64,000 nucleotides of DNA from Alphaproteobacteria bacterium (GTDB lineage Bacteria; Pseudomonadota; Alphaproteobacteria; RF32; CAG-239): positions 58,614 through 122,613 of the forward strand of contig JAFUEX010000001.1 of NCBI GenBank assembly GCA_017470165.1. Reading direction: 5' to 3'. The notes below the pieces were generated by a model. That model had not been told where the DNA came from. It did no database searches and worked only from the letters and a program-made list of their open reading frames with translations. A program made the position numbers and the translations under genes. Below, in pieces: positions 36,613 to 38,936 of this stretch (position 1 is its first letter; every line of letters starts with the position of its first letter).

Positions 36613-38673
36613 ATGACCGAATCAACCTCAAAAATACCATCCGCTGCCGAAGAAAATATCGGCATTGCTCAGGTGTCAAAACGCGATGGAACTTTAGCTC
36701 CTTTCGATTCTAACAAAATTTATAATGCAATATGCAAAGCCGGTGCCAGCACCAAAGAGTTCGGCGAGGACGAAAGTTGGCTTTTGACCGCACAAGTGCT
36801 GAAAGTTCTCAAGCATAAGTTTGATGCCAAAAACCTGCCATCTATTGAACAAATTCAAGATGTGGTGGAACAAGTGTTGATTTCGGCCAATTATTTCAAT
36901 ACGGCCAAAGCCTATATTTTGTATCGCGACCAGCGCACCCGTACCCGCGAGGATAAAAAGGTGATGGTTGATGTCGAGAGCTCGATTAACGAATATTTGG
37001 AGCGTTTGGACTGGCGTATTAACGAGAACGCCAATCAGGGTTATTCCAACGGCGGTCTGATCCTCAATGTCTCCGGCAAAGTTACGGCTAATTATTGGCT
37101 CAGCCATGTTTATCCGGCGGCCATCGGCGAGGCGCATCGCAACGGAGATTTCCATATTCACGATTTGAGTATGTTGGCTGCTTATTGCGCCGGATGGTCG
37201 TTGAAGAACTTGTTGCACGAAGGTTTTAACGGTGTCCCCGGAAAGGCCGAAGCCGGTCCGGCCAAACATCTGAGTGCCGCCATCGGGCAAATGGTCAATT
37301 TTATGGGTACCTTGCAAAACGAGTGGGCCGGTGCACAGGCGTTTTCTTCGGTGGATACTTATCTGGCTCCCTATATCCGCAAGGACAAACTCTCCTATAA
37401 GCAAGTTTATCAAAGTATGCAAGAATTGGTTTATAATTTGAACGTGCCGTCGCGCTGGGGCTCGCAAACACCGTTTACCAACTTTACTTTCGATTGGGTT
37501 TGCCCCGAGGATTTGCGCGACAAACACCCGCTGATTGCCGGTGTTGAGCAGCCTTTCACCTATGGCGAACTGCAAGAAGAAATGCATATGATTAACAAGG
37601 CCTATATGGAAGTTATGATGAAAGGCGACATCAAAGGGCGTCCGTTCACTTTCCCGATTCCCACTTACAATATGACACCGGATTTCCCTTGGGAAGACGA
37701 GAATACCGAGCTGTTGTTTGAGATGACCGCCAAATACGGACTGCCTTATTTCCAAAACTTTATTAATTCGGTTTTGAAACCCGGTCAGATTCGTTCTATG
37801 TGCTGTCGTTTGCAATTAGACTTGCGTGAGTTGTTGGCTCGCGGCAATGGTTTGTTCGGCTCGGCTGAACAGACCGGCTCCATCGGCGTGGTTACCATCA
37901 ATTGCGCTCGTTTGGGCTATGTTTATAAAGGCAATGAGGCCGGACTTTATGCGCGCTTGGACGAGCTGTTGGAGTTGGCAAAAGTTTCCTTGGAAATCAA
38001 ACGCAAGCTCATCCAGCGGCTGATTGACGGCGGATTGTTCCCCTATACCAAACGTTATCTTGGTACTTTGCGCAACCACTTCTCGACCATCGGTGTTAAC
38101 GGTATGAACGAGATGATTCGCAACTACACCAATGACGAGCACGAAATTGCCGATGAATGGGGGCAGAATTTTGCCATCAAATTCTTGGATTATATTCGTG
38201 ACAAGTTGGTCAAGATTCAAGAAGAAACCGGCCATATGTACAACTTGGAGGCCACTCCGGCCGAAGGCGCTACCACTCGTTTTGCACGGGCTGATAAAAA
38301 GCGCTATCTCGACATTATCCAAGCCGGAACTAAAGAAAATCCTTTTTATACCAATTCATCACAGCTGCCGGTCGGCTATACCGACGATCCGTTCGAGGCC
38401 TTGGACTTGCAGTCCACCTTGCAAACCAAATATACCGGTGGCACCGTGCTGCACCTTTATATGGGGCAGCGCATCTCCTCGGCTAAGGTATGCCGTGACA
38501 TTGTCAAACGTGTCTTAACCAACTATCGTTTGCCATATATTACTATTACTCCCACTTTTTCCATTTGCCCCAAGCATGGATATATCTCGGGAGAACACAA
38601 ATACTGCCCGATTTGTGATGAAGAAAAGAAGGCAGCCAAACGCGCCGCGGCATCCAGAAAAGATGTTGCTTAA
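36613..38673 (+). CDS. nrdD: Anaerobic ribonucleoside-triphosphate reductase NrdD, lacking its glycyl-radical end
   Basis: A 686-residue protein (ATG at 36613; a GTG lies 15 bp upstream). An ATP cone at about 12-100 (VSKRDGTLAPFDSNKIYNAI) precedes the class III reductase core: NVPSRWGSQTPFTNFTFDW, SMCCRLQLDL, TLRNHFSTIGVNGMNEM. A zinc site follows near the C-terminus (ICPKHGYISGEHKYCPIC). In other NrdD proteins the glycyl-radical hairpin follows the zinc site in the same chain; here the protein stops after KKAAKRAAASRKDVA, and the radical segment is encoded by the next gene. It makes dNTPs without oxygen, and depends on NrdG for radical formation. Confidence 0.93.
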   Translation: MTESTSKIPSAAEENIGIAQVSKRDGTLAPFDSNKIYNAICKAGASTKEFGEDESWLLTAQVLKVLKHKFDAKNLPSIEQIQDVVEQVLISANYFNTAKAYILYRDQRTRTREDKKVMVDVESSINEYLERLDWRINENANQGYSNGGLILNVSGKVTANYWLSHVYPAAIGEAHRNGDFHIHDLSMLAAYCAGWSLKNLLHEGFNGVPGKAEAGPAKHLSAAIGQMVNFMGTLQNEWAGAQAFSSVDTYLAPYIRKDKLSYKQVYQSMQELVYNLNVPSRWGSQTPFTNFTFDWVCPEDLRDKHPLIAGVEQPFTYGELQEEMHMINKAYMEVMMKGDIKGRPFTFPIPTYNMTPDFPWEDENTELLFEMTAKYGLPYFQNFINSVLKPGQIRSMCCRLQLDLRELLARGNGLFGSAEQTGSIGVVTINCARLGYVYKGNEAGLYARLDELLELAKVSLEIKRKLIQRLIDGGLFPYTKRYLGTLRNHFSTIGVNGMNEMIRNYTNDEHEIADEWGQNFAIKFLDYIRDKLVKIQEETGHMYNLEATPAEGATTRFARADKKRYLDIIQAGTKENPFYTNSSQLPVGYTDDPFEALDLQSTLQTKYTGGTVLHLYMGQRISSAKVCRDIVKRVLTNYRLPYITITPTFSICPKHGYISGEHKYCPICDEEKKAAKRAAASRKDVA

Positions 38674-38717
38674 GAACAAACTTTGTATTACAATTTATCA
38701 AAACATTGGAGAAAAAA

Positions 38718-38936
38718 ATGACAACTATTAATTTTGAAGACATTACCTTAAAAGACGAAGAAAGACAACCCTGCGAAGTTTGGACCCGTGTAATGGGATA
38801 TCTCCGCCCTTATTCTGAGTTCAATGTAGGTAAAAAGTCTGAGTTCGATTCTCGCGTATGTTTTTCTGAACTTAAAGCGGTAGAAGGATGCGCTTGTCAT
38901 TGTGATTGTGATGCTGAAGCGATTGCGGCAGAATAA
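38718..38936 (+). CDS. Separately encoded glycyl-radical subunit of NrdD
   Basis: A 72-residue protein with its own GGAG site 6 bp before the ATG, 44 bp after the nrdD stop. Residues 18-50 (PCEVWTRVMGYLRPYSEFNV, then GKKSEFDSRVCF) match the C-terminal glycyl-radical hairpin of class III reductases (pattern RVMGYLRP ... FN.GK..E...R); the radical Gly would be G27. The last 20 residues are Cys-rich (EGCACHCDCDAEAI). Together with NrdD it would make a complete enzyme. A stand-alone glycyl-radical domain recalls GrcA/YfiD, the spare part for pyruvate formate-lyase. nrdG follows 6 bp later. Confidence 0.88.
   Translation: MTTINFEDITLKDEERQPCEVWTRVMGYLRPYSEFNVGKKSEFDSRVCFSELKAVEGCACHCDCDAEAIAAE

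Follow-up and report, generated by a model that had tools for sequence, protein, structure and literature searches.

The glycyl-radical domain (GRD) of the class III ribonucleotide reductase NrdD is described in the literature as the C-terminal part of the enzyme (in excerpts of PMC9531940, PMC9669993, PMC3019208, PMC11226230, PMC4009431, PMC12338860, PMC8683613, PMC12386605, PMC12288474, PMC4493059 and PMC4390871). We have analyzed a stretch of 64,000 nucleotides (the window) from an alphaproteobacterium of the order RF32, family CAG-239 (assembly GCA_017470165.1, contig JAFUEX010000001.1, positions 58,614 to 122,613), in which this domain is encoded by a small gene of its own, between the gene for an nrdD core and that for an NrdG activase. 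To judge from sequence comparison, the locus very probably encodes a working two-subunit class III ribonucleotide reductase, in which the radical loop would be a separate, replaceable subunit.

One-chain NrdD, as represented by the structures 4coi (Thermotoga maritima), 8p23 and 1h78, shares with this locus the NRDD barrel, the zinc ribbon, the radical loop and an adjacent NrdG, together with an ATP-cone that not all of these enzymes possess. We take 8p23 and 1h78 to come from Prevotella copri and phage T4, respectively. In the known enzymes a single polypeptide comprises both zinc ribbon and radical loop, whereas in the window the radical loop is another protein. In 4coi, alignments place the radical glycine 13 residues past the last zinc cysteine; the core chain of the window, in contrast, ends 18 residues past that cysteine, and the GRD has 26 residues before its own predicted radical glycine, Gly27. 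The double-cysteine finger loop of the core, MCCR, is common to the T. maritima lineage of one-chain NrdD, of which it is the motif class (PMC9669993).

Small stand-alone glycyl-radical domains able to serve a large enzyme in trans are known from GrcA/YfiD of Escherichia coli and the phage-borne Y06I of T4, both of them spare radical domains for pyruvate formate-lyase (PMC8683613). The GRD of the window resembles them in form but belongs to PF13597 rather than PF01228, and to a ribonucleotide reductase rather than pyruvate formate-lyase. Moreover, GrcA/YfiD is a spare for a complete enzyme, whereas in the split lineage the GRD is the only radical domain. An earlier note on this DNA had proposed a detachable radical subunit after the manner of GrcA/YfiD; a separate and conserved gene with its own start, sometimes far from the core or present in several copies, speaks for a separate subunit. 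The GRD is not a member of the GrcA family. A reductase divided into two consecutive genes has been described in Pseudomonas aeruginosa as NrdJa/NrdJb (PMC4009431, PMC9669993); that enzyme, however, is B12-dependent, of class II and without a glycyl radical, and its second chain consists of an IscU-like and zinc-finger part. The protein model PRK08270 (NF006126), for a ribonucleoside triphosphate reductase, is matched by the core alone with 1118.1 bits (curated cut-off 548), although the model itself includes the GRD at positions 649-682. Existing annotation names the pieces, a short neighbor labelled 'nrdD' among them, without mention of a two-subunit enzyme.

The split locus of the window

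The open reading frame (ORF) of the core runs from ATG to TAA and encodes 686 residues, or 691 if a GTG further upstream is taken as the start. It matches the ATP-cone and positions 1-532 of the 562 of the NRDD model PF13597 (595 bits), while the sole Pfam match of the 72-residue small protein is to positions 531-562 of the same model; the two pieces jointly span the whole of it. The zinc motif CPKH...CPIC is complete in the core, its four ligands being assigned by analogy with the T. maritima motif (PMC4493059), and C668 is the last zinc cysteine. Gly27 of the small protein aligns, in a weak profile match (E 0.42), with Gly621 of 4coi, the radical glycine of T. maritima NrdD (PMC4493059). The spacer between the genes is not a multiple of three, which puts the GRD out of frame with the core, and nrdG starts 6 nt after the stop of the GRD gene. 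Thus the ORFs and Pfam boundaries agree with the earlier note, which had the core ending just past its zinc site and the radical hairpin in a separate 72-residue gene 44 bp further on; the ATG and GGAG site that it had assigned to the small gene are likewise in place (Table 1).

The window holds several features of class III: the barrel with its finger-loop and beta-A cysteines, a radical-loop gene in the same operon, and the NrdG activase. It departs from the members described so far in the literature searched in the place of the radical loop, which in those follows the zinc ribbon within one polypeptide; this is a matter of architecture and not of chemistry. Because the radical loop lies on a separate gene, we regard the enzyme as a variant and not as a canonical member of NrdD. 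No further PF13597 pieces, and no protein with the pyruvate formate-lyase-type radical domain PF01228, were found in the window's own assembly, which comprises 26 contigs and is rated 89% complete. The cysteine-rich tail of the small protein, which had been called unusual, is present, but the trait is lineage-specific and the claim weaker than first put: 50 of 115 distinct split GRD genes have no cysteine there and 47 have at least two. A putative role of this tail is that it might carry electrons for a thioredoxin-type reductase.

Table 1. Features of the split nrdD locus, in coordinates of the window.
Feature	Coordinates	Strand	Basis or remark
nrdD core (catalytic chain of a class III ribonucleotide reductase, lacking the GRD)	36613..38673	+	ORF, Pfam, NF006126
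N-terminal ATP-cone, residues 20-109	36670..36939	+	PF03477, E 6.9e-22
Finger-loop motif MCCR, residues 396-399, double-cysteine type	37798..37809	+	sequence
Putative zinc-ribbon ligands C652, H655, C665, C668	38566..38616	+	sequence, close to core C-terminus
44-nt spacer, core stop to GRD ATG	38674..38717	+	Shine-Dalgarno GGAG 38708-38711, 6 nt before ATG
Stand-alone GRD gene, 72 residues	38718..38936	+	PF13597 positions 531-562, E 6.9e-8
Predicted radical glycine Gly27 codon (RVMGY)	38796..38798	+	profile match to 4coi, conservation
nrdG2-type radical-SAM activase, 234 residues	38943..39647	+	TIGR02495, 189 bits (cut-off 131); PF04055

Conservation and origin of the split

The small GRD protein is present in 33 of 35 genomes of the same genus, the window's own included, the two misses being G006 and G024. 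ORF scans found a further 40 of 40 core-end junctions of the window's family to be split (among them G070, G081, G108 and G122), as well as separate ORFs for core and GRD in G056, G375, G314, G408, G175 and G215; the locus L134 is also split. These are related genomes of the kind that the earlier note had proposed to look for, with an nrdD ending after the zinc site and a small gene downstream. It had also named a continuous nrdD in sister genomes as the mark of an artefact. Across the order sample, in which 124 of 126 genomes have NRDD, no core match among those listed extends beyond position 544 of PF13597, and none of the 40 family junctions is continuous. Continuous genes do occur further out: NRDD was found in 35 of 289 genomes of the class sample, 10 of them fused and 25 not (called from ORF scans and listed match ends, with G178, G231 and G289 called from listed matches only).

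The two-gene layout also occurs in plasmid records of Cupriavidus necator H16 (pHG1), Bradyrhizobium ottawaense, Paracoccus ferrooxidans and Shinella zoogloeoides. The small neighbor, of 59-66 residues, is already named nrdD in the Cupriavidus, Bradyrhizobium and Shinella records and is a 'hypothetical protein' in that of Paracoccus. Work by Siedow and colleagues in the Journal of Bacteriology (1999) reportedly found nrdD and nrdG of the C. necator megaplasmid pHG1 to be needed for anaerobic growth. A scan of GTDB species genomes for the GRD gave at least 576 encoding loci, 80 of which were examined. The core lies directly upstream in 62 of these (61 by script, together with L103, where the contig begins within the core); 16 lack a same-strand core within about 2.6 kb or more upstream, including L100, with a core on the opposite strand some 2 kb off; and two (L074 and L084) lie too near a contig end for the presence of a core to be judged.

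Over 115 distinct split pairs the spacer ranges from -8 to 707 nt and the reading frames are distributed 44/36/35. A Shine-Dalgarno-like 4-mer precedes the GRD start in 107 of the 115 pairs against 10.7 expected in shuffles, a count somewhat inflated in that the choice among several possible starts was partly made by this signal. For 64 window-like GRD genes the ratio of nonsynonymous to synonymous change (pN/pS) comes to 0.22, pS being 0.77 and near saturation; the small gene is under purifying selection. Because it is both conserved in 33 of 35 congeners and constrained to this degree, a chance origin of the small ORF is excluded. All 17 GRDs that were aligned agree in the radical glycine and the residues of the radical loop. 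On the core side, C192, C397, C398, C652, C665 and C668 are present in all 95 distinct cores compared, whether split or unlinked, and C431 in 92 of them, and most core tails end some 10-30 residues past the zinc site (longer in L104).

The origin of this arrangement was addressed in a quick maximum-likelihood tree of 69 of the 173 core ORFs, from which near-copies, one open-ended core, a spurious hit in L109 and cores below 45% identity or of a second type had been dropped. One group unites 57 split rows with 3 unlinked and 2 fused ones, and 7 fused rows stand outside; its fork has an approximate likelihood ratio (SH-aLRT) support of 94, just below the program's mark of 95. The tree is rooted at its midpoint and contains long branches (L155, L038, L154). 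On that root the simplest history would be one fission, followed by at least two re-fusions (L024, and L059 from an Actinomyces oris plasmid) and at least two separations of the genes. The fused L024, from genome G378, retains the RQxCEVW typical of free GRD starts; the outer fused forms that were compared lack it. G281, which bears the same family label as G378 and is absent from the tree, also has one chain; its NrdD (L372, G281:C68:3000-5600) has a long extension after the GRD, and G378 is the other sampled member of that family.

A second NrdD type is split as well, in two genomes of the window's family (L011 and L012, from G080 and G114) and in G283 (L023). Its cores end after the zinc site and are followed by a gene of 60-63 residues with RRITGYLVGTLDRFN and then by an nrdG-like gene. 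From the sequences, this second fission is independent of the first.

Radical domains apart from a core

In G789 the contig with the core is 51.6 kb long; the 5.2 kb examined past the core contain no GRD, and the sole GRD found adjoins nrdG on another contig. The same holds for G396 (7.6 kb past the core without a GRD, with GRD and nrdG elsewhere), and a similar but weaker case is G228, where the contig ends 1.4 kb after the core. Because core and GRD are encoded at separate loci in these two, perhaps three, genomes, the GRD must, as the sequences stand, act there in trans. Where the core sits elsewhere, in G789 and G396, it is beside the GRD that nrdG remains.

Several GRD places may accompany one core: four in G779, four in G786 and three in G783, counts that do not represent a frequency because most of the 17 genomes compared were picked for solitary GRDs. 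In the class sample an extra GRD was seen in 0 of 10 fused genomes versus at least 5 of 25 others, which are small numbers. One genome with a split NrdD and three GRD places also contains a fragmented second NrdD-like gene that has internal stops (G784:C29:727-3850). The solitary GRDs of G779 and G782 adjoin integrases, and in G779 also an endolysin; other solitary bacterial GRDs sit among apparently ordinary genes. Examples are a GRD beside apparent ATP synthase genes (L202 4245-4457) and one beside a ClpB-like gene (L209 6684-6902), both neighbors being named by eye from sequence. On the Allochromatium vinosum plasmid pALVIN01 (L057 2986-3195) a 69-residue GRD annotated nrdD stands beside a CHAP-domain gene, with no annotated core in the 6 kb examined.

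Phages carry the domain too. A scan of IMG/VR returned 187 encoding stretches for the first GRD type and 360 for the second, and 80 of each were examined. Of the first type, 79 are stand-alone ORFs and one (L239) lies beside a core; no core or nrdG was found near these 79 in stretches of 4-16 kb by tblastn with five cores and two NrdGs, and 49 of 50 whole viral records have no core anywhere by PF13597 search. The second type gave 75 stand-alone GRDs (two with nrdG), four with a core and one fused; in L358, one of those with a core, GRD and zinc ribbon still form one piece. Here 46 of 50 whole records are without a core by the same search, and in two coreless records (G846 and G850) the match starts at position 506-507, such that a trace of the preceding region may remain. 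Viral contigs are often fragments, so that the absence of a core is not proof. The viral nature of the contigs is supported by phage-type neighbors, which were seen in a few contigs: DNA polymerases, thymidylate synthase, dUTPase, dCMP deaminase, baseplate and endolysin. A tally of 108 neighboring proteins contained integrases in 9 and terminase, tail and endolysin families two times each.

In all 80 viral GRDs of the first type the radical loop keeps its R, M, G, Y, RP, N, GK, E and R without exception, with the proviso that part of this motif (WTRVM, N-GK-E) belonged to the search patterns that found them. First-type phage GRDs match phrog_4132, listed with unknown function (E 4e-5 to 7e-7), and those of the second type match the C-terminal end of the NrdD-like phrog_487; an annotated phage collection yielded one weak match for the first type and 14 records for the second. 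We considered whether a phage GRD might mark an integration site in a host GRD gene, but in L200/L201 the GRD is flanked by lysis-type genes on one side and an integrase on the other, a position that speaks instead for a phage gene. Some viral GRDs have a longer open frame ahead of the domain (L223, L329, L346, L355 and L363). In the isolated Eggerthella phage EL753P1 (OP172808.1; L371 3741-7172) an NrdD with an intein-like LAGLIDADG insert stops past its zinc site; about 0.4 kb downstream follows a GRD-like stretch apart from it, with a reading frame that is broken in the record.

A probable two-subunit enzyme and its alternatives

At the level of sequence, the split, its conservation, the encoding in trans, the occurrence of several GRD genes per core and the phage-borne copies are established. 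In the two-subunit enzyme that we envisage, the large chain would supply the ATP-cone and the zinc ribbon as well as the barrel with its MCCR finger loop, and the small protein would be the glycyl-radical loop subunit. The activase NrdG would install the radical on Gly27, most likely with the small subunit docked on the core; the radical loop would then be seated in the barrel beside the finger-loop cysteines, and catalysis would start as in one-chain NrdD. Since the radical glycine is the site cleaved by oxygen, we propose that a damaged small subunit could be exchanged for a new 72-residue protein, which would spare the cell remaking the 686-residue core. Non-covalent assembly, activation by NrdG in trans and exchange after oxygen cleavage are inferred from one-chain NrdD and from GrcA and Y06I.

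Could the break be an error in an ordinary one-chain nrdD? The draft state of the window's assembly leaves some room for an artefact of sequencing, assembly or frameshift, but the same break in the congeners and family junctions, the two annotated genes of the plasmid records, the spacers in all frames and the GRD genes at other loci reduce its probability to practically nil; independent assemblies have already refuted it. The earlier note's argument that this is not a simple frameshift is upheld by the out-of-frame spacer, by pairs in all three frames and by conservation in congeners. Alternatively, core and GRD might be joined after all, through recoding (readthrough, frameshift or bypass) or through protein splicing or ligation, as a few pairs that are in frame and parted by stops (e.g. 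G193, G312 and G295) would allow. We consider this scarcely credible, given the out-of-frame spacer of the window, the even spread of frames over the 115 pairs, the GRDs on other contigs or in coreless viral contigs, and core tails that are in most cases too short for an intein half. It is also very unlikely that the small protein is a relic or a regulator and that the core has given up the glycyl radical. Debate surrounds the T. maritima-type active site, which is unusual (PMC4493059), and the window's genome has another reductase; on the other side stand the invariant loop residues in the 17 aligned and 80 viral GRDs (the latter within the limit of the search motif), the low pN/pS, and the nrdG that stays by the GRD when the core is elsewhere. 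Furthermore, a class I/II alpha match (PF02867) was found in 26 of 105 order-sample genomes and by the same search was not found in the other 79; among 20 individually listed genomes without it, 18 have at least two NRDD matches and two (G006 and G024) have none.

A more serious alternative is an old and neutral gene fission, in which the enzyme works but replacement after damage plays no part. We regard this as quite possible, if short of probable: a single old origin would account for the spread, and some lineages have become one-chain again (G378 with L024 and G281, of one family, and L059). Against it, the extra GRD genes beside a single core, the second independent split and the coreless viral GRDs, which make up 154 of the 160 viral loci examined, suggest that there is some benefit in the free GRD as such. 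Several observations nevertheless weigh against a two-subunit enzyme with a replaceable radical domain. Gut or rumen samples are the source of many relatives, and oxygen damage may be rare in such places; the one-chain relatives G378, G281 and L059 mean that separation is not required. The window's own genome is among the 26 with PF02867, so that the split enzyme need not be its only reductase and the sole-reductase argument is not directly applicable to it. G006 and G024, congeners whose assemblies are rated 100% complete, have no NRDD (PF13597) or PF02867 match, and no reductase was found in them. In G135 the single NRDD match is a core, and in G097 it is a weak one (E 1e-6), probably a GRD without a core; an assembly gap is possible in both.

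In the open literature that we searched we found neither a separate NrdD radical domain nor a phage-borne copy described; subscription papers lie mostly outside that search, and a prior description is possible. The pieces themselves are already catalogued, the small genes being annotated in some records. Andorfer et al. 2021 (PMC8683613) give spare radical domains as validated only for pyruvate formate-lyase and as possible for other glycyl-radical enzymes. The present locus belongs to a family with a naturally separate radical domain of the anaerobic DNA-precursor enzyme; Cupriavidus necator and Paracoccus are among the cultivated bacteria that have it. A split enzyme lets radical installation, docking and replacement be studied by mixing two proteins. 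Reductase surveys that count on finding the radical loop within one polypeptide would wrongly take such enzymes for truncated ones.

It is tempting to go one step further. We lean, if only slightly, towards the view that the GRD would be exchangeable in two independently split lineages, and that probably hundreds of phages carry the GRD only, which would dock on the host NrdD core and, with host NrdG, keep up or restart deoxynucleotide (dNTP) synthesis. This suggests a function for small phage genes such as phrog_4132. If true, it would amount to a minimal phage takeover of the DNA-precursor supply and to a spare-part system for a second glycyl-radical enzyme.

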